Shown one piece after another: positions 3,833 to 43,328 of a stretch of DNA of 64,000 nt. Source of the stretch: Pseudomonadota bacterium (lineage in GTDB: Bacteria; Pseudomonadota; Gammaproteobacteria; Burkholderiales; Rhodocyclaceae); assembly GCA_018241725.1 (NCBI GenBank), contig JAFEDI010000124.1:142471-206470 (forward strand), read 5' to 3'. A program made the position numbers and the translations under genes. The stretch's first letter is position 1. Each line of letters opens with the position of its first letter. A model generated the notes under the pieces. It saw nothing but the letters and a program-made list of their open reading frames with translations, made no database searches and had not been told where the DNA came from.

Positions 3833-5659
3833 GTGCGCAACAACCAGCCTGTCAGCCAGAACGAATATGTCATCCCGGATGGCGCGGCAATCATCAGCCG
3901 CACCGACCAGGACGGGAAGATCACCGACTGCAACAGCGAATTCCTCGCCGCCAGCGGCTTCACCTACGATGAACTCATCGGTCAGCCTCACAATATCGTC
4001 CGCCACCCCGACATGCCGTCGGAAGCCTATCGGGACATGTGGGACACCCTGTTACGCGGCCGCCCATGGAGCGGCGTCGTCAAAAACCGCCGCAAGAACG
4101 GCGACTTCTACTGGGTCAACGCCACCGCCACGCCCCTTCCCGACGGTTCCGGTTACATGTCCGTGCGCATCAAGGCCACGCGCAGCGAGATCAGCGGCGC
4201 CGAAGCCCTCTATGCGCAGATGCGGCGCGATCCGAGCATCCTGTTGCAGGAAGGACGTCTCGCCCCCCGCGGCATCGCCGCGCTGGCACAACGGATCGTT
4301 CCAGCCCTCAGCATCGGCACCCGCATCTATCTGCTCACAGCCTTCGTGGCAGCCATCGGTGCCGGTTTCGGTATCGTCGGGCTCAACGACGCGGCACAGG
4401 CCCGCGATGCACTGAAACAACACCAGGGCGCACAAGCCGGACTCGTGCAACAGGTCGCCTCCCTGAGCACCCAATTGCGGGCCAACGGCAGCCTCGACGC
4501 AGGCGGGCTGGACCAGCTCGGTGAAACGCTGCGCCACCAGGGAGACGTGGCCCAGGCCGAATACGCCCGTGCCGAAGCCCACTACCAGGACTTCCTGCAG
4601 TTGTTCATCGGACTCGGCGCAATCGGCCTGCTCGCCGCTGCACTGGGGTCCGCGGCACTGGCTCACCGCCTGCGTCAGTCCGTTGACGCTGGCAAGGGTG
4701 TTGCCGAGGCCATTGCCAGCGGCAACCTGCTGCAACCGCTCCCCCAGGCCGGATACGATGAACTGGGTGCCCTGATCATCCACCTGGCGGTCATGCGCAA
4801 CAACCTGCACGAGCTGATCGCATCGATCCGCAACCAGGTCACCGCGCTGCTCACCAACGCCCGCCAGCTCAGCCAGACCGCCAGCGACACTCACCGGCTC
4901 GCCGAAGATCAGTCCGAATCGGCGTCGGCGATGGCCGCGGCCGTGGAGCAACTGTCGGTCTCCATCGACCACATCGGCGACCACGCCCGTGAATCACGGG
5001 AACTCTCGGAAGGCTCGGGCAGCCAGGCCAGCAGCGGTGCCAGAGTCATCACCGCGGCGGCCGGCGAGATGCGCGCCATCGCCGAATCGGTAAACGAGTC
5101 GGCCAACTCCGTACGCGATCTCGAAAGCCTGTCCGGTGACATCTCGATGATCGTCGGCGTGATCCGCGACATCGCCGACCAGACCAACCTGCTCGCCCTC
5201 AACGCCGCCATTGAGGCAGCCCGCGCCGGCGAATCGGGACGTGGCTTCGCCGTCGTTGCCGATGAAGTGCGCAAGCTGGCCGAGCGAACCACCAACTCCA
5301 CCGCCGAGATCACCACGATGATCGAACGCATCCAGAGTGCGACCCGTGGCGCGGCCGACGACATGGAGGCCGGCGTCACGCGGGTGGCCCGCGGCGTCTC
5401 GCTGGCCGCCGAGGCCGGCGCCACGGTCGGCAGCATCCAGGACAGTACCCAGCGGGTGCTTGCCTCGGTGGCCGGCATCACGCTGGGTCTCGAGGAACAA
5501 TCGACCGCCGCCCGGGACATCGCGCAGCGGGTCGAACGCATTGCCGGCACCTCCGAATCCAACGCCGCCAGCGCCGCCACACTGACCCGCGCGGCCAGCG
5601 AACTGGCCGAACTGTCCCGCCAGCTGGAAGTCGTATCCGGACGCTTTCGCATCGCCTGA
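3833..5659 (+). CDS. PAS-domain methyl-accepting chemotaxis protein, Aer-like
   Basis: 608 aa with a GTG start. An N-terminal PAS domain (about residues 10-115) carries Aer hallmarks: NIVRHPDMP and [14 protein letters not shown], the region that binds FAD in aerotaxis receptors. Two hydrophobic segments (about 163-185 and 252-278) flank a short loop, then a HAMP-like stretch and a long coiled-coil signalling domain with the conserved tip [20 protein letters not shown]. It should sit in the inner membrane and report redox or oxygen state to CheA/CheW. There is no chemotaxis operon next to it. The domain order PAS-TM-TM-HAMP-MA is somewhat longer than in E. coli Aer. Confidence 0.9.
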
Positions 5660-36620: not shown

Positions 36621-36833
36621 CTTTCCGCTCCTCTCCCACGCGGCTCCCGCCAACCGCTTCCGCGGCCGGACGACCATCTTTCGCCCGTTCATCGGGCTGA
36701 CGCCTCCGCGAACTATCCTGTGACCTGAACAGCGACACACCACAACGGCAATTGGCCTTTGATGCATCGCAACAGGGACGCTATCCTGTCTCTATCCTTT
36801 CATTCGGCTCCACTCTTTCAAGCGAGACACAGC

Positions 36834-39143
36834 GTGAGCGACATCGATCTGAAACGCTTCTTCCTGGAACAGGTGCGCCTGTTCGAGCATTTCCCGGCCG
36901 ACAAGGTCGAGGAGATCGTTGCCAGCGGGCGGCTGGCCACCTACGAAGGCAACGAGGCCATCCTGGAAACCGGCGACGAGGGCCAGTACCTCGGCGTGCT
37001 GATCACCGGCCACGCGGAGATCTCGGTCACCGACAACACCGGCACCCGCACAGTGCTGACCCAACTCGGGCCGGGCGAGGTGTTCGGTGTGATGTCCACC
37101 CTGACCGGCGACCGCGTCACCGCCGACGTGATCGCCGGCAACCGCTGCTACGTGTTGCTGATCCCGCTGGAGACCTTCAACACCCACATCCTCACCAACC
37201 CGAAGGCCATCGGCTACCTGTCGCGGATGCTCCTCGAACGCATGCGCAGCATGTCGCTGGACATCGTGTCGGCCAAGTCCTCCGCCGCGTCGGTGCTGTC
37301 ACTGCACTCCGCACGCCCGGGCAAGGTAATCGCCCTCAACGTGGGCCTCAGCCAGATCCACTTCGGCATTTACGACACCCGCGACCTCGGCTCCGACGTC
37401 CACGGCATCATCGACAACACCGACGAGTACGTGTCGCGCATCAGCGTGATGGTCGGCCCGCAGGTCAAGACCATCACCCGCGACCCCTTCCCCCTGTCCG
37501 AGCTGTTCCCGGTCATGCAGGACGCCGCCCGCCAACTCGGCGACGCCTTCGCCTTCGAACTCGATGAAATCTGCGCCGTCGGCCACCGGGTCGTCCATGG
37601 CGGCAACCGCTTCGCCGCTGCGGCCGTCATCACGCCGACGGTCATCGCCGACATCGAGGCGCTGTCGGTCTTTGCCCCGCTGCACAACCCGGTGAACGTG
37701 GCGGGCATCCGCGAAGCCCTCAAACAGCTGCCCGACGTGCCCCACGTGGCGGTCTTCGACACCGCCTTCCATCAGACCCTGCCGCCCTATGCCTACCTGT
37801 ACGGTCTGCCCTACGACCTCTACAAGCAGGACGGCATCCGCCGCTACGGCTTCCACGGCACTTCCCACCGCTACGTGTCGCTGAAGTCGGCCGAGGTGCT
37901 GAAGCGCCCCCTGGGCGAACTGGAGATCGTGTCCTGCCACCTGGGCATCGGCGCCTCCGTGTGTGCCATCGACCACGGCCGCTCGGTAGACACCTCGATG
38001 GGGATGACGCCCACCGATGGGCTGATCATGCCCAGCCGTTCCGGCAGCATCGACCCGGCGGTCATGGTGCACCTGATGGAACGCCAACAGATGTCGCCGG
38101 AGGCCCTGTCCACGCTGATCAACACCGAGAGCGGCCTGAAGGGCATCTCCGGCATCTCCAGCAACATCCACGACATCGAAACCGCCGCCGGCAACGGCCA
38201 CCACCGCGCACTGCTGGCCCACAAGGCCTTCTGCTACCAGATCCGCAAGAACATCGGCGCCTATATCGCGGCGATGGGCGGCATCGACGTGCTGGCCTTC
38301 ACCGGCGACATCGGCGAGACCAGCGCCGCGGTGCGCAGCCTGGCCTGCCAGGGCCTCGCCTACATGGGCATCAAGCTCGACGAAGAAAAGAACCGCAACC
38401 TCGGCAAGGTGGACGACTTCGCAATCATCTCCACCGACGACTCGCCGGTGACCATCCTCGTCATCAACAATGACGACGAGCGCCTGGTGGCCTGGGAAAC
38501 CCTGCGCGCCATCGAAAGGGACGAACTGATCCGCGAGGCCAAGGCCGAGGAAAAGGCGCCGATGCCGATCCCCGTCGAGATCTCGGCCCACCACGTGCAC
38601 CTTTCGCAGGCCGACGTCGAAAAACTGTTCGGCCCCGGCCACCAGCTCACGCCGGAACACGAACTGTCCCAGCCAGGCCAGTTCGCCTGCGCCGAGAAGG
38701 TGCACCTGGTCGGCCCCAAGGGGCGCATCGCCAACGTGCGCGTGCTCGGCCCGACCCGCAAGGAAACCCAGGTCGAAATTGCGATGACCGAGCAGTTCAA
38801 GGTCGGCCTGCAGCCGCCGATCCGCGAATCCGGCGACCTCGCCAACACGCCGGGCATCACCCTCGAAGGCCCGGCCGGCAGCACCACCATCGAACGCGGC
38901 GTGATCTGCGCCCAGCGTCACATCCACATGACGCCGGAAGACGCGCGCCGCCTGCGGGTGCGCGACAAGTACGTGGTGCGCGTGCGGGTCGAGGGCGAGC
39001 GCGAGCTGATCTTCGGCGACGTGATCGTGCGGGTCAGCCCGAGCTACCGGCTGGCAATGCACATCGACACCGACGAGGGCAACGCCGCCAACATCCGCAC
39101 CGGCATGCTCGGCTACATCGAGGAAATCCAGAGCCGCCATTGA
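36834..39143 (+). CDS. Fusion protein: cyclic-nucleotide-binding domain, acetate/propionate kinase, PduL-type phosphotransacylase
   Basis: 769 aa from a GTG at 36834; an in-frame ATG at 36759 would add 25 residues that look non-coding. Residues about 10-130 are a cNMP/Crp-type beta roll (VGLSQ absent; LGVLITGHAEISVTDNTGTRTVLTQLGPGEVFG). About 155-540 form an AckA-like kinase with HRVVHGG, FDTAFHQTLP, YGFHGTSHRYV, MPSRSGSIDP and FTGDIGETSAAVR, but the first phosphate loop reads NVGLSQIHF instead of NAGSSSLKF. About 570-765 match PduL, with Zn-binding ISAHHVHLSQAD and CAQRHIHMTPEDA. The two enzymes would convert acyl-CoA and phosphate via acyl-phosphate to acid and ATP in one chain, possibly gated by a nucleotide or other ligand. 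Monocistronic. Confidence 0.9.
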   Translation: MSDIDLKRFFLEQVRLFEHFPADKVEEIVASGRLATYEGNEAILETGDEGQYLGVLITGHAEISVTDNTGTRTVLTQLGPGEVFGVMSTLTGDRVTADVIAGNRCYVLLIPLETFNTHILTNPKAIGYLSRMLLERMRSMSLDIVSAKSSAASVLSLHSARPGKVIALNVGLSQIHFGIYDTRDLGSDVHGIIDNTDEYVSRISVMVGPQVKTITRDPFPLSELFPVMQDAARQLGDAFAFELDEICAVGHRVVHGGNRFAAAAVITPTVIADIEALSVFAPLHNPVNVAGIREALKQLPDVPHVAVFDTAFHQTLPPYAYLYGLPYDLYKQDGIRRYGFHGTSHRYVSLKSAEVLKRPLGELEIVSCHLGIGASVCAIDHGRSVDTSMGMTPTDGLIMPSRSGSIDPAVMVHLMERQQMSPEALSTLINTESGLKGISGISSNIHDIETAAGNGHHRALLAHKAFCYQIRKNIGAYIAAMGGIDVLAFTGDIGETSAAVRSLACQGLAYMGIKLDEEKNRNLGKVDDFAIISTDDSPVTILVINNDDERLVAWETLRAIERDELIREAKAEEKAPMPIPVEISAHHVHLSQADVEKLFGPGHQLTPEHELSQPGQFACAEKVHLVGPKGRIANVRVLGPTRKETQVEIAMTEQFKVGLQPPIRESGDLANTPGITLEGPAGSTTIERGVICAQRHIHMTPEDARRLRVRDKYVVRVRVEGERELIFGDVIVRVSPSYRLAMHIDTDEGNAANIRTGMLGYIEEIQSRH

Positions 39144-39251: not shown

Positions 39252-39431
39252 CTAATCGTTCCGTTCGAGAAAGCGCCGGGTCGCCAGGCGCAGAAAATCC
39301 ATCTGCTGGCGGAAGGCCCGGCAACCACGGCAGAACAGCAGGTGCAGTCTCAGGCGCAGCCGCTCGCCATGACTGAGCGGGCGGTCCAGCGCCTCGGACA
39401 TCAAATGGGTGGCGTCCTTGCAATTCATCAT
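39252..39431 (-). CDS. Small zinc-finger anti-sigma factor
   Basis: 59 aa (start 39431, or the adjacent ATG at 39428). Sequence begins [20 protein letters not shown] and contains HLLFCRGC, the His-x3-Cys-x2-Cys of zf-HC2 anti-sigma domains; a further Cys sits at residue 4. There is no membrane segment, so it is a soluble ZAS-type regulator. It overlaps the ECF sigma gene stop (ATGATG), the tight coupling typical of a sigma/anti-sigma pair. A thiol- or metal-responsive switch is inferred from the zinc ligands. Confidence 0.82.
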   Translation of the reverse strand: MMNCKDATHLMSEALDRPLSHGERLRLRLHLLFCRGCRAFRQQMDFLRLATRRFLERND

Positions 39432-40015
39432 GATGCCCGGCCCTCCTCGCCGAACCAGCCGTGGCTGAGACACTGCCGCAGCGCCGCGCGGGCCCGGTGC
39501 AGGATCACATTGCAGTTATTGGCAGTAAGCGCCAGCGTGGCGCAGATCTCGTCGGTCTCGAAACCGAGGAATTCGCGCATCATGAAAACCCGCGCGGTGC
39601 GCGCCGGCAGCACCTCCAGGCAGGTCTCGAAGACCTGCCAGAACTGGCGCTGGGCCAGCGCCTCTTCCGGGTCGCCCCAGGCCTGCGGACGCCCCTGCGG
39701 GCTCCAGTGTTCGTTTTCCTTGAAGAGCTTGTCGAAGGCCTCGTCGAGTTCGCCCTCGTCATGCTCGAAGCTGGAAATCTGCACCGTGCGGCCGCGCTCC
39801 CGCAGGGTGTCGATGATCTTGTGGCGCAGGATCGTGAAGATCCAGGTCTTCAGCGCCGAGCGCCCGGCGAAACGGTCAATGCCGAGCAATGCCGACTCGA
39901 TGGCTTCCTGCACCGCGTCGTCGGCGGCTGCCTCATCGTGTAGTTGCAGGCGTGCGAATTTCAGCATCTGCGGGCGAAAGCCCGAAATGAGGTCGGCATT
40001 CCCGGAGTCGATCAT
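39428..40015 (-). CDS. ECF-family RNA polymerase sigma factor
   Basis: 195 aa. Region 2: [64 protein letters not shown]; region 4: [48 protein letters not shown]. Start at 40015 overlaps the DoxX stop by ATGA. Fifth gene of the bufferin-like operon, so it most likely activates its own promoter upstream of the precursor gene, where an ECF-type TGTAAGAA/CGTCCAAT pair is found. Comparable ECF genes regulate DUF2282/DUF692 operons in other proteobacteria. Confidence 0.9.
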
Positions 40016-40566
40016 GTCTGGCGAATGGGTTGCAGGGCGGCTCTCCCGTACGGTCCGCCATGCAGCCACCGACGGATCCACGCATCCATGCTCAGCCGCC
40101 CCGGCCCAAGCAGGATCAGTGGCATGAGCATAGCAAGGAAGAGCAGCGGCAACTTGAAATTGCCGTGGCCATCGTCGGTGATCGCATAGCCCAACCACAG
40201 CTCGCCGAACCCGGCCCACTCCGCCGGCCAATGCACGGCAGCGATCGCCACCACCGTCAGCACTGCCAGTGCCACGCTGAAGAAGCGTGTCGCCAACCCC
40301 AGCAGCAAAGCCACGCCGCCGATCAACTCGATCCACGTGGCGAGCTGCCAGCTGATCTCCGGCGGAACCACGTCAAAGGGAAACGGAAACTGGTCCTGGA
40401 TGTCGGCGAACCAGTTGTGACCGAAAAATTTTTCCCGTCCCGAATCGAAGAACTCCCAGGCCAGCAGAGCCCGCAGGCCGAGCAGGGCAACCCACTGGCC
40501 AAAGCTATCCAGGTGGCCGAGGCCGCCATCGAGACAGGCCGATACCTGGCTGCGGATCGTATTCAT
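40012..40566 (-). CDS. DoxX-family membrane protein
   Basis: 184 aa, four helices. [25 protein letters not shown] and the second pair [39 protein letters not shown] are the DoxX signature. Overlaps the DUF2063 stop and the sigma start by 4 bases each. DoxX proteins are regular members of bufferin/HvfABC-type operons; the role there, perhaps quinone-linked or in exporting or handling the modified peptide, is not settled. Confidence 0.85.
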
Positions 40567-41324
40567 GTGCGTTCTCCCAGTAAAACGCCGTGGTGGCGCA
40601 ACTCGGCCAGGTTATGCCGGCCAAAATCGATGAAAGCGGTGTCGGCCGGTCGTCCCAGCTCCGCCGCCAGGGTTTCGAAGGCGATCCGCCCGCTGCACTC
40701 GCCATCGAGCAAGCTCAACAGGCGCGCCGTAGCCGGGCTCAATGCCATGAAGCACACCGCGTCCAGCGCATTCCGATACACCGCCAGGTGAACCGGTTCG
40801 GGCTGGCGCGGCCGGAAATCCGGGCCGATGCGCTGCACCGGCCATGCGAAGGCCAGGGACAGCAGGGCCGGGTTGACCAGCGGCACGCCGTCGACCAGGT
40901 CACCATCCGGACGGTGCGGCGGCACCGCCACCTCCATCACATCCACCGCCAGCTCGGCCCATTCATAGCGCAATAGTTCACCGAACCAACGCGGCAACCG
41001 CTGGCGGCAGGCGCCGCTGTCAAGGTAAGCCAGCAGCTCTTGCGGAATCTCGCGGAACCATGGCGTCACGCAGTCCCAGTCGCGCAGGAAGGCGCGGCAA
41101 AGGCGAGTCCACCGCGCTTCGCCCAGGGTGGCCCGCGCCACCGGAAAGCAGCGATCCAGGAAACCTCTCAGACGCTGGAACACGAGCCTCTCATACACCG
41201 CCATGCGCGCGGCGGGCACGCCTGCCGGACAGGCGGCGCGCCGGCCATGACGCAGACGCCGGCCGAAGGCAGCCTGCCAGGCCTGCAGCGTCCCTGGCAC
41301 AGCCAGATCAGCGGGCCGGCTCAT
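40563..41324 (-). CDS. DUF2063 (BufC/HvfC/MbnC-like) RiPP maturation partner
   Basis: 253 aa, start at 41324 overlapping the DUF692 stop (ATGA). N-terminal DUF2063 helical domain: [15 protein letters not shown]...[44 protein letters not shown]-terminal part includes [16 protein letters not shown] and a winged-helix-like end ([24 protein letters not shown]). This family binds the peptide substrate and its DUF692 partner, as MbnC does with MbnB. Probably both modify the small precursor encoded first in the operon. Confidence 0.87.
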
Positions 41325-42166
41325 GCCACCACCTCGGCCGTGCGCCGCGCGCAAGCCTGGCGGGCGACGATCTGCGCAACCTCAGCCCCCAGCGCGGCCA
41401 GGGGCGGAAAGTTGAAATCCCGCTCCAGGCAGGTCGGCAAGGGTCCAGTACGTGCATAGGCGGCATCGAGCAGCGCCCACACCGGATCGATCACATCCGC
41501 GCCGTGGGTGTCGATGCGCAGCCCGTCCGGCTCCACGTCATGCCCCGCCACATGAATGTAGCAACAGCGCTCCAGCGGCAGCCCGTGCAGAAAGTCGTAA
41601 GGGTCGAAGCCAAAGTTGGCCGCATTGACGAGAATGTTGTTCACGTCCAGATGCAGGCAGCAGTCTGCCTCCTCCACCACGGCGCGGATGAATTCCGCCT
41701 CGCTCATTTCGGCACCCGGAGGGGCGACGTAGTAGGAGGCATTCTCTATGCCGATGCGCATGCCCAGCATGTCCTGGGCCTGACGGATGCGCGCGGCAAC
41801 CCAGCGCACCGCGTCACCGGTACAGGGCAGCGGGAACAGGTCATAGAGCTGGCCGGCATCGCCGCACCAGGACAGATGCTCGGTGTACAGACCGATGCCG
41901 TGCTCAAGCATGAAAGCACGGATGCGCGCCAGCAGCTCCATGTCGAGGGGCTGGGGGCCGCCGAGATTCAGCGACAGTCCATGGCAGACGAAGGGATAAC
42001 GCTCGGTGAAGGCACGCAACTGGCGGGCCGAACGGCCGCCCATGGCGGCCCAGTTTTCAGGCGCCAGCTCGAAGAAATTCACCGCGGCGGGCACGCCGGC
42101 CTCCAGCTCGGCCAGCAGTTCGCGGCGAAAGCCGAGCCCGGCCCCGTGGGGAATGCATCCTGACAT
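41321..42166 (-). CDS. DUF692 multinuclear non-heme iron oxidase (BufB/HvfB/MbnB-like)
   Basis: 281 aa, AGGGAGAG before the ATG at 42166. All hallmark metal-site segments are present: HGAGLGFRRE, FELAPENW, HGLSLNLGG, EHLSW, IENASYY, LHLDVNN, HVAGHDV and THG. MNIO enzymes use two or three irons and O2 to rework Cys residues in precursor peptides, giving oxazolone/thioamide or thiooxazole groups that bind copper. The substrate here is surely the Cys-rich peptide encoded immediately upstream. TIM-barrel, cytoplasmic. Confidence 0.93.
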   Translation of the reverse strand: MSGCIPHGAGLGFRRELLAELEAGVPAAVNFFELAPENWAAMGGRSARQLRAFTERYPFVCHGLSLNLGGPQPLDMELLARIRAFMLEHGIGLYTEHLSWCGDAGQLYDLFPLPCTGDAVRWVAARIRQAQDMLGMRIGIENASYYVAPPGAEMSEAEFIRAVVEEADCCLHLDVNNILVNAANFGFDPYDFLHGLPLERCCYIHVAGHDVEPDGLRIDTHGADVIDPVWALLDAAYARTGPLPTCLERDFNFPPLAALGAEVAQIVARQACARRTAEVVA

Positions 42167-42184
42167 GTCGAACTCTCCCTTGAG

Positions 42185-42215
42185 GGCCGGGGAAGGGCGT
42201 CTGCCCGCCCCGGCC
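42185..42215 (-). other. Stem-loop between precursor gene and DUF692 gene
   Basis: GGCCGGGG (42185-42192) pairs with CCCCGGCC (42208-42215) with a further GGGC/GCCC inside. It probably sets more precursor than enzyme by partial termination or mRNA protection. Confidence 0.5.
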
Positions 42216-42226
42216 ATTCCGCCCGA

Positions 42227-42538
42227 TTACTTCTTCTTGTCGGCACCGCAGCTGCCGTCAGCCTTCTTGTCGGCGCCACAGCTGCCATCGGCTTTCTTGT
42301 CCATCGCCATCTTGTCGTTCATTTTCGCTTCGGCCTTGTGCGCGGACTTCCTCGCGGCCTTTTTGTCGGCACCGCATTTGCCTTCGCCGCACTTGCCGTC
42401 CTGCATCTTGGTGTCGGCCTGGGCCAGCTGGTAGCCGGCAGCCAGCGGCTTGGCGGCAAAGGGGTTGTCGGCGGCATGGGCGGCGCCGAAGGCGACGGAA
42501 GCGGCGAGAGCAGCGGTGAGAGCGGTAGCCTTGTTCAT
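42227..42538 (-). CDS. Bufferin/HvfA-like RiPP precursor, secreted Cys-rich peptide
   Basis: 103 aa. Signal peptide residues 1-22 (ends AAHA). The mature peptide has exactly four Cys: Cys50 and Cys55 in DGKCGEGKCG, and Cys87 and Cys97 in two copies of ADGSCGADKK. The first pair matches the EGKCG-type motif of HvfA peptides, the known kind of MNIO substrate. The rest is rich in Lys, Ala and Met with low complexity. It heads an operon with DUF692 and DUF2063 genes. After modification it should be exported to the periplasm to sequester copper or a related metal; both modification and metal are inferred. Confidence 0.85.
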   Translation of the reverse strand: MNKATALTAALAASVAFGAAHAADNPFAAKPLAAGYQLAQADTKMQDGKCGEGKCGADKKAARKSAHKAEAKMNDKMAMDKKADGSCGADKKADGSCGADKKK

Positions 42539-42613
42539 TGCGAATCTCCTAGAGGGGTTGAAAGCAGACCTGCCGGACGCCAACGTGGCGCCCCGAATTA
42601 TCAGGTACTGGCG

Positions 42614-42644
42614 ATTGGACGGAGATGCCCCCCGCGTTCTTACA
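42614..42644 (-). promoter_or_regulatory. ECF-type promoter upstream of the bufferin-like operon
   Basis: On the minus strand TGTAAGAA (42644-42637) and CGTCCAAT (42621-42614) are 15 bases apart, with an ECF-like -35 containing TGTAA and a -10 containing CGTC. It lies 76 bases before the precursor ATG. The ECF sigma encoded in the same operon is the expected reader. Confidence 0.6.
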
Positions 42645-42746: not shown

Positions 42747-43328
42747 TCAGCTCTTCGGCAGGCGGCCCATGAGGTAGAACTCGTCGTTGGGGCGCAGGGA
42801 GATCAGGTTGGCGAGCCGGTTGCTCATCGCGAAGAAGGCGGTGATCGCACCGATGTCCCAGATCGCCTCGTCGTCGAAACCGTGATCATTGAGCGCCGCG
42901 ATGTCGGCATCGCCGACGCTGGCCGAGTCGAGGGACAGCTTCAGTGCGAAGTCGAGCATGGCCTGCTGGCGCGGGCTGATCTCGGCCTTGCGGTAGTTGG
43001 TGGCCAGCTGGTCGGCGACGCGCGGGCTCTTGGCCCGGATGCGCAGGATCGCCCCGTGGGCGACCACACAGTACAGGCACTGGTTGGCGCCGGAGGTGGC
43101 GACGACGATCATCTCCCGCTCGGCCTTGCTGAGGCCGGCATCCTTCTCCATCAGCGCGTCGTGGTAGGCGAAGAAGGCGCGGAATTCCTCCGGGCGGTGG
43201 GCCAGCGCAAGGAACACATTGGGCACGAAACCGGCCTTCTCCTGCACGGCCAGGATGCGGGCACGCACATCCTCGGGCAGGTCGGCGAGTTCGGGAACGG
43301 GGTAGCGGCTGATCGGCAGATCGGACAT
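42747..43328 (-). CDS. AhpD-like peroxidase-related (carboxymuconolactone decarboxylase) protein
   Basis: 193 aa, AGGAGAC before the ATG. The active-site segment SGANQCLYCVVAHGAILR has the C-x2-C-x3-H pattern of AhpD-type alkylhydroperoxidases; the preceding GLSKAEREMIVVATS helix is also conserved. It matches the 'peroxidase-related enzyme' subgroup of about 190 residues. It probably removes organic peroxides using an unidentified thiol donor. Monocistronic with its own terminator, located just upstream of the bufferin-like operon on the same strand. Confidence 0.87.
   Translation of the reverse strand: MSDLPISRYPVPELADLPEDVRARILAVQEKAGFVPNVFLALAHRPEEFRAFFAYHDALMEKDAGLSKAEREMIVVATSGANQCLYCVVAHGAILRIRAKSPRVADQLATNYRKAEISPRQQAMLDFALKLSLDSASVGDADIAALNDHGFDDEAIWDIGAITAFFAMSNRLANLISLRPNDEFYLMGRLPKS

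Follow-up and report, generated by a model that had tools for sequence, protein, structure and literature searches.

A captophorin-type operon of Zoogloea with its own sigma/anti-sigma pair, and an apparent exchange of HvfX for a thioredoxin-CcdA pathway

A 64,000-nucleotide stretch of a Zoogloea genome (contig JAFEDI010000124.1, positions 142,471 to 206,470; hereafter the window) carries six minus-strand genes, running from 42538 to 39252, and raises the question of what peptide they make, how they are switched on and what their DoxX-family membrane protein, HvfX, contributes. We consider it quite probable that they form a self-switching system buffering copper in the periplasm through a captophorin (also named oxazolin or Buf_EGKCG), a ribosomally synthesized and post-translationally modified peptide (RiPP) of the HvfA type, with HvfX as a helper resembling a thioredoxin (Trx)-CcdA pathway. 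The operon itself is a sound, unsurprising addition to a known type; the replacement of HvfX at the level of the regulon is the part worth following, and the mutual exclusion of HvfX and Trx-CcdA seems to be new. The features, all on the minus strand, with the scores of their profile matches, are as follows:

42614 to 42644, minus strand: putative sigma-E-type promoter, TGTAAGAA-N15-CGTCCAAT, proposed from motif conservation
42227 to 42538, minus strand: hvfA, precursor of 103 aa with a putative Sec-type signal peptide (by eye) and the core DGKCG EGKCG ... DGSCG DGSCG
41321 to 42166, minus strand: hvfB, MNIO (DUF692) enzyme of 281 aa; PF05114, 322 bits; NF003818, 388 bits (cut-off 360)
40563 to 41324, minus strand: hvfC, partner protein of 253 aa (PME1 partner) with DUF2063 and a RiPP recognition element-type domain; PF09836 and PF22106; NF050145, 243 bits (cut-off 142)
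40012 to 40566, minus strand: hvfX, DoxX-family membrane protein of 184 aa; PF07681; HvfX equivalog model NF050144, 143 bits (cut-off 80)
39428 to 40015, minus strand: extracytoplasmic function (ECF) sigma factor of 195 aa, ATG at 40015; Sigma70_r2 and r4_2; NF009184; TIGR02943, 260 bits (cut-off 162)
39252 to 39431, minus strand: soluble zinc-finger (ZAS) anti-sigma factor of 59 aa with Cys4, His30, Cys34 and Cys37; zf-HC2, 36 bits (cut-off 22.2); NF052368, 74 bits (cut-off 50)

A preliminary description of this locus had reported six genes, four of them coupled by ATGA overlaps, a precursor with four cysteines and an anti-sigma factor of 59 residues, all of which were confirmed; four overlaps, read from the sequence, lie at hvfB/hvfC, hvfC/hvfX, hvfX/ECF and ECF/anti-sigma. 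Its assignment to HvfA-type MNIO operons with a built-in ECF sigma factor and soluble zinc-finger anti-sigma factor also stands, with five proteins above curated cut-offs (the anti-sigma factor was scanned from Cys4 onward and the ECF protein minus its first residue). By sequence, the solved structure nearest to HvfB is 3bww (E=1.5e-72), and the sole PDB match of HvfC is 3dee (NGO1945; E=6e-17). In the precursor, a putative signal peptide with the typical regions and an AHA cleavage motif was recognized by eye, and the protein scores 24.7 with the NCBIfam model KCGExKCG_twice (cut-off 19.5). One captophorin-type precursor gene and one MNIO gene are present in the genome, where a search for a second of either found none.

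Because NMB2140-2145 of Neisseria meningitidis holds the same gene content, the six-gene architecture is not new, and the operon is less novel than the preliminary description supposed. The meningococcal genes are, in the available portion of PMC2893595, a co-transcribed and autoregulated sigma-E operon held by the ZAS anti-sigma factor MseR. NMB2140-2145 and its gonococcal counterpart NGO1948-1943, which makes gonophorin, share with the window all six families, the terminal position of the sigma and anti-sigma genes, the Cys4/His30/Cys34/Cys37 arrangement and similar promoter halves (GTAAG, CGTCYAA); in Neisseria, however, the DoxX gene comes first and not fourth, sigma-E also drives msrAB as a main target, and the precursor repeats are not the mixed GKCG/GSCG series seen here. 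Haemophilus influenzae has the same HvfA/B/C/X families (oxazolin), a sigma-dependent hvf operon and a small cytoplasmic anti-sigma factor (RpoE2/HrsE), but its sigma and anti-sigma genes adjoin msrAB, away from the hvf operon, and its HvfA has three AEGKCGEGKCG motifs. The fontiphorin (fon) cluster, also a captophorin cluster, combines an MNIO enzyme, a PME1 protein and an EGKCG-type precursor with corresponding enzyme residues, with seven sites in place of the four found here, two of which are Ser-Cys. Bufferins Buf1 and Buf2 have an MNIO enzyme, a DUF2063 partner, a Sec-exported precursor and sometimes an ECF sigma factor; Buf1 clusters pair the sigma factor with NrsF, unlike the soluble ZAS protein of the window, whose enzyme reaches 245 bits with the BufB model NF050167, under the cut-off of 310, and whose precursor gave no Pfam match of any kind, DUF2282 included, at E<=0.1. 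Products of captophorin clusters are Cu-binding 5-thiooxazole peptides according to the accessible part of PMC13097082, and the reports, as far as available, give 5-thiooxazoles and Cu binding for the gonococcal, Haemophilus and Fontimonas products.

The anti-sigma factor has Cys4 and His30-x3-Cys34-x2-Cys37 at the spacing of the MseR positions; of these, Cys34 is indispensable in MseR, with contributions from Cys4 and Cys37 (PMC2893595, in part). We collected 95 related loci by HvfB similarity (100 minus 5 duplicates; 11/95 without an accepted precursor), and in 60/95 an ECF gene lies no more than 6 kb away on the same strand, directly followed by the Cys-His-Cys-Cys motif in 58 of these 60; the two others are L034, which reaches a contig end, and L086, where none was found. 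Among 23 Zoogloea genomes, an HvfB of the captophorin type is encoded by 18 (the window's, and others at 72-89% identity), and the ECF and anti-sigma genes follow it in 15 of the 17 other loci, the contigs of L034 and L042 ending earlier. As a side observation, the pair lies upstream and not downstream of hvfA in L053, L061, L068, L069, L072 and L123, the switch module having moved as a unit, and in L043 and L044 (genomes G005 and G009) a related pair of ECF and ZAS anti-sigma genes has a different MNIO enzyme nearby, about 40% identical.

The regions preceding hvfA in 17 aligned Zoogloea loci agree, with few deviations, in the motif TGTAAgAA-N14/15-CGwCyAAt, which resembles the Neisseria sigma-E consensus of GTMAGBWTT and CGTCTAAH set 12-13 bases apart. 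The strict pattern TGTAAGAA-N15-CGTCCAAT has a single site in the genome of 5.9 Mb, and its reversed control has none. A loose form precedes hvfA in 40/49 loci with a downstream ECF gene, compared with a mean of 0.28 over 50 simple shuffles, with 2/7 loci whose ECF gene lies upstream and with 12/28 that have no ECF gene nearby. This enrichment at ECF-linked loci suggests autoregulation of the operon as the natural reading. The msrA gene was rejected as a sigma target in the window's genome, no motif being found at either msrA locus (3.5 kb examined). The anti-sigma factor may sense copper or oxidants, as the preliminary description envisaged; the meningococcal sigma-E/MseR switch gave no response to H2O2, diamide or singlet oxygen in the portion of PMC2893595 at hand, whereas H. 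influenzae rpoE2 expression is raised by HOCl and H2O2.

The promoter motif led from hvfA to a second pair of genes. The near-strict form TGTAAKAAN{14,15}CGWCYAW has 19 sites in the 23 Zoogloea genomes (control, 1), of which 13 lie at hvfA. Five others precede the gene of a small exported thioredoxin (WCPTC) that has a CcdA/DsbD-type membrane gene behind it; the last site, in G018, is upstream of a GAPDH-like gene and is regarded as chance. Protein searches found CcdA in 10/23 of these genomes (E<=1e-20), HvfX in 7/23 (E<=1e-5) and both in none, and all 17 genomes with either one fall among the 18 with a captophorin-type HvfB. The eighteenth, G022 (77% complete), yielded neither gene, and neither was present in the five genomes lacking this HvfB. 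In G013 (L028), closely related to the window's genome, hvfX is a short remnant between hvfC and the ECF gene and Trx-CcdA is absent; in G014, a stop removes just the last few residues of HvfX. The pairs are located as follows:

L154 to L158 and L177 to L181: exported thioredoxin plus CcdA, in ten Zoogloea genomes without hvfX

Within 150 bases before trx in these ten genomes, the loose motif stands in 6/10 and a weak form, defined after inspecting the sequences, in 10/10 (expected per 250 bases, 0.011 and 0.033). Strong CcdA matches were also obtained in 13 further genomes, and here the loose form was counted in seven and the weak form in 11; in the L070 genome an additional site precedes ccdA, and no motif was found at Trx-CcdA of the L064 genome. 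Three loci from Azonexus and kin (L063, L073 and L074) have trx in the gap between hvfC and the ECF gene, with ccdA on the upstream side of hvfA; both genes have a motif of their own, and the search detected no hvfX in the three genomes.

HvfX itself seems to be co-regulated even outside the operon. All seven Acinetobacter loci (L108-L113, L115) have hvfX divergent from hvfA, and the motif occurs on the hvfX strand too; in L109, hvfX (minus strand, 4847-5446; NF050144, 240 bits) starts about 35 bases past it. Consistent with this, the reverse-strand promoter control returned seven hits, above the number expected from shuffling, and such a site is present in all seven Acinetobacter loci.

For the comparison beyond Zoogloea, we scored 52 genomes, i.e., the 18 Zoogloea genomes and 34 of 50 others searched, leaving out 16 as more distant (L076, L077, L091-L094, L102, L104-L107, L114, L116, L117, L121, L126); one of these, L093, is Nitrosospira, a betaproteobacterium with neither gene. 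A weak CcdA match (34% identity, L068) and a weak DoxX match (E 6e-11, L080) were scored as absent. HvfX alone was found in 26 genomes, CcdA alone in 18, both in five and neither in three (Fisher p = 7e-7, kinship ignored). The exclusion inside Rhodocyclales and their kin is thus strong, not perfect, and many of the genomes are incomplete.

How could two such different modules serve one peptide? With the chemistry, export, copper binding and anti-sigma mechanism modelled on characterised relatives, HvfC would bind the precursor and HvfB would oxidise its cysteines, each to a 5-thiooxazole (4 H lost per Cys). The modified peptide would then leave the cytoplasm through Sec, and its heterocyclic thiols would bind Cu(I). 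At rest, the Zn-bound anti-sigma factor would hold the ECF sigma factor, and loss of the Zn/thiol site through an oxidant or a metal would free it to transcribe its own operon from 42614-42644. HvfX would be a membrane helper that keeps the thiols of the exported product reduced, or would carry out an equivalent redox step. The periplasm is an oxidising compartment. Free thiols of thiooxazoles are open to alkylation, and the peptide aggregates, for which the authors suspected disulfides (PMC13097082, as far as available). A Trx-CcdA pair would keep such thiols reduced and, because Zoogloea genomes carry one or the other behind the same kind of promoter, we infer that HvfX and Trx-CcdA most likely do interchangeable work in keeping exported thiooxazole thiols reduced. 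This natural swap of HvfX for a known thiol-reducing pathway gives HvfX a concrete, testable function, and suggests that exported captophorins depend on a reductant, a need that would go unnoticed in vitro where dithiothreitol is present. MNIO-PME1 loci numbered over 24,000 in one survey (PMC13097082, available portion); HvfX, frequent in MNIO clusters, is termed uncharacterised in the part at hand of a July 2026 preprint. DoxX proteins have been proposed as additional Cu-binding factors and also as protection against other stresses, and searches of open-licence papers listed none that connects DoxX, MNIO clusters and CcdA (the CcdA mentioned in the MNIO paper PMC12257519 is an unrelated antitoxin in a reference title).

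Several results weigh against the proposed system. The precursor reaches 26.3 bits with the full HvfA model, far under its cut-off of 95. Looser promoter patterns gave fewer hits in the window's genome than their controls (2 vs 9; 6 vs 17), and with these searches below the reversed control and a single strict site, a wider regulon there was dropped. The weak-form count before trx is post hoc, because the form was chosen with the sequences known. In the set of 52 genomes, HvfX and Trx-CcdA occur together in five and are both missing from three, and the 16 more distant genomes gave no strong CcdA match, seven of them also lacking HvfX. Copper did not bring about expression of a related Microbulbifer cluster, which protected E. 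coli slightly at best. Finally, the 55 aligned HvfX sequences have no conserved Cys and no CxxC; HvfX itself therefore cannot be a dithiol reductase, a role we ruled out, and if it replaces the Trx-CcdA pair it needs other chemistry, e.g., quinol-driven, which is speculation. Its invariant residues include R32, K46, E80, G90, R94, H112, W117, G135, N136 and D161. An AlphaFold model (pLDDT 87.7) had no Foldseek match at E<=0.001, the top one being NACHO/TMEM35A (E 0.31); kinship to NACHO/TMEM35A or to vitamin-K carboxylase was set aside, these matches being too weak for use, and no sequence match to HvfX was found in the PDB. We advance only tentatively the full form of the idea, in which HvfX and Trx-CcdA are modules that stand in for each other within one sigma-E regulon and both pass electrons across the membrane to exported, Cu(I)-binding thiols, CcdA from cytoplasmic thioredoxin and HvfX, with no Cys and with invariant Arg, Lys, Glu and His, probably from the quinol pool.

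The strongest alternative, to which we give a chance not far short of even, is that the exclusion reflects lineage history and no shared function. Fisher's test is blind to kinship, the two modules show no common chemistry in their sequences, and five genomes carry both genes. A kinship-free test with five pairs on well-supported branches gave a mean of 3.1 opposite and 0 same, which is not significant, the pairs being too few. On the other hand, a quick HvfB+HvfC tree, with several long branches, requires at least eight changes for HvfX and at least nine for CcdA; trx occupies the usual place of hvfX, the gap between hvfC and the ECF gene, in L063, L073 and L074; and each module has the sigma-type motif in its own lineages.

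It is also conceivable, though we doubt it, that the operon serves mainly against oxidants such as hypochlorite, the Cys/Met-rich peptide guarding the envelope together with HvfX or Trx-CcdA and copper binding being secondary. The oxidant-responsive RpoE2 of H. influenzae governs both the hvf operon and msrAB, the Trx-CcdA pair, with a promoter of the type found at hvfA, is a pathway of thiol repair, and some Zoogloea precursors have Met-rich stretches. Against this account, characterised products bind Cu, as far as their reports were available, the motif is absent from both msrA loci of the window's genome in the 3.5 kb examined, and the meningococcal sigma factor was unresponsive to the three oxidants named above.

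The precursor repeats bear on the product itself. The four Cys lie at positions 50, 55, 87 and 97 (core DGKCGEGKCGADKK ... KADGSCGADKKADGSCGADKKK). The preliminary description set the C-terminal twin repeats apart from the usual EGKCG motif and had overlooked the DGKCG-EGKCG pair at residues 47-56. The two DGSCG repeats it had singled out are present; they are not unusual, since Ser-Cys sites occur in 48/85 precursors (84 accepted from the 95 loci plus the window's own), forming the majority in 11/85, and the specificity residues of the enzyme are kept. In motif counts, Ser-Cys accounts for 97/526 and Lys-Cys for 393/526 over the 95 loci, or 96/519 and 393/519 over the 84 accepted ones. With Ser-Cys sites this widespread, DGSCG was dropped as the hallmark of a new product. 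In some Zoogloea the Ser-Cys type dominates: it stands at all four core Cys in L034 (Asp-Ala/Gly-Ser-Cys-Ala), which makes this hvfA a good test substrate, and at 3/4 in L029, L030, L037 and L038. Separately, hvfA of L029 and L037 encodes, after the leader and ahead of the Cys repeats, a run rich in Met (MEGKAMEGKAMEGK, MDGKMMDGKMMD) that might serve for Cu(I) binding or as a sink for oxidant.

HvfB residues R14, R15, D250 and F251 were matched to Arg15, Arg16, Asp249 and Phe250 of FonB by position and motif only, and are conserved in 90, 87, 96 and 84 of 96 aligned rows, respectively; they are intact in the eight Ser-Cys-rich rows printed, including the all-Ser-Cys L034. A co-change of the enzyme with Ser-Cys was considered and set aside: after the Phe, Asp is found in 4/5 printed Ser-Cys-rich Zoogloea and Asn in L030. 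In the accessible text of PMC13097082, FonBC tolerates Ala, Arg and Thr in place of Lys at position 3 and fully modifies DGKCG. Given this tolerance and the kept specificity residues, we would expect each of the four Cys to become an ordinary 5-thiooxazole. That the DGSCG sites stay unmodified, leaving a product with two thiooxazoles and two free Cys, is unlikely: Ser is not among the position-3 variants found reported in that text, and several natural motifs were modified just once by FonBC, but position 3 is tolerant and the all-Ser-Cys precursor of L034 has been retained next to an enzyme with the usual residues. The idea of the preliminary description that DGSCG sites are modified differently or bind another metal appears very improbable, as, despite their dominance in the Zoogloea loci just named, they are frequent across the family, intermixed with Lys-Cys, found beside intact specificity residues even in L034, and variant at a position where FonBC accepts Ala, Arg and Thr.

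Two neighbours of the operon may be mentioned. Directly upstream, at 42747-43328 on the minus strand, lies a peroxidase-related gene of the AhpD/CMD family (TIGR01926, 232 bits), and on the plus strand, 36759-39143 encodes a 794-aa fusion of a cyclic-nucleotide-binding domain, an acetate kinase and a PTAC phosphotransacylase, all above cut-off.

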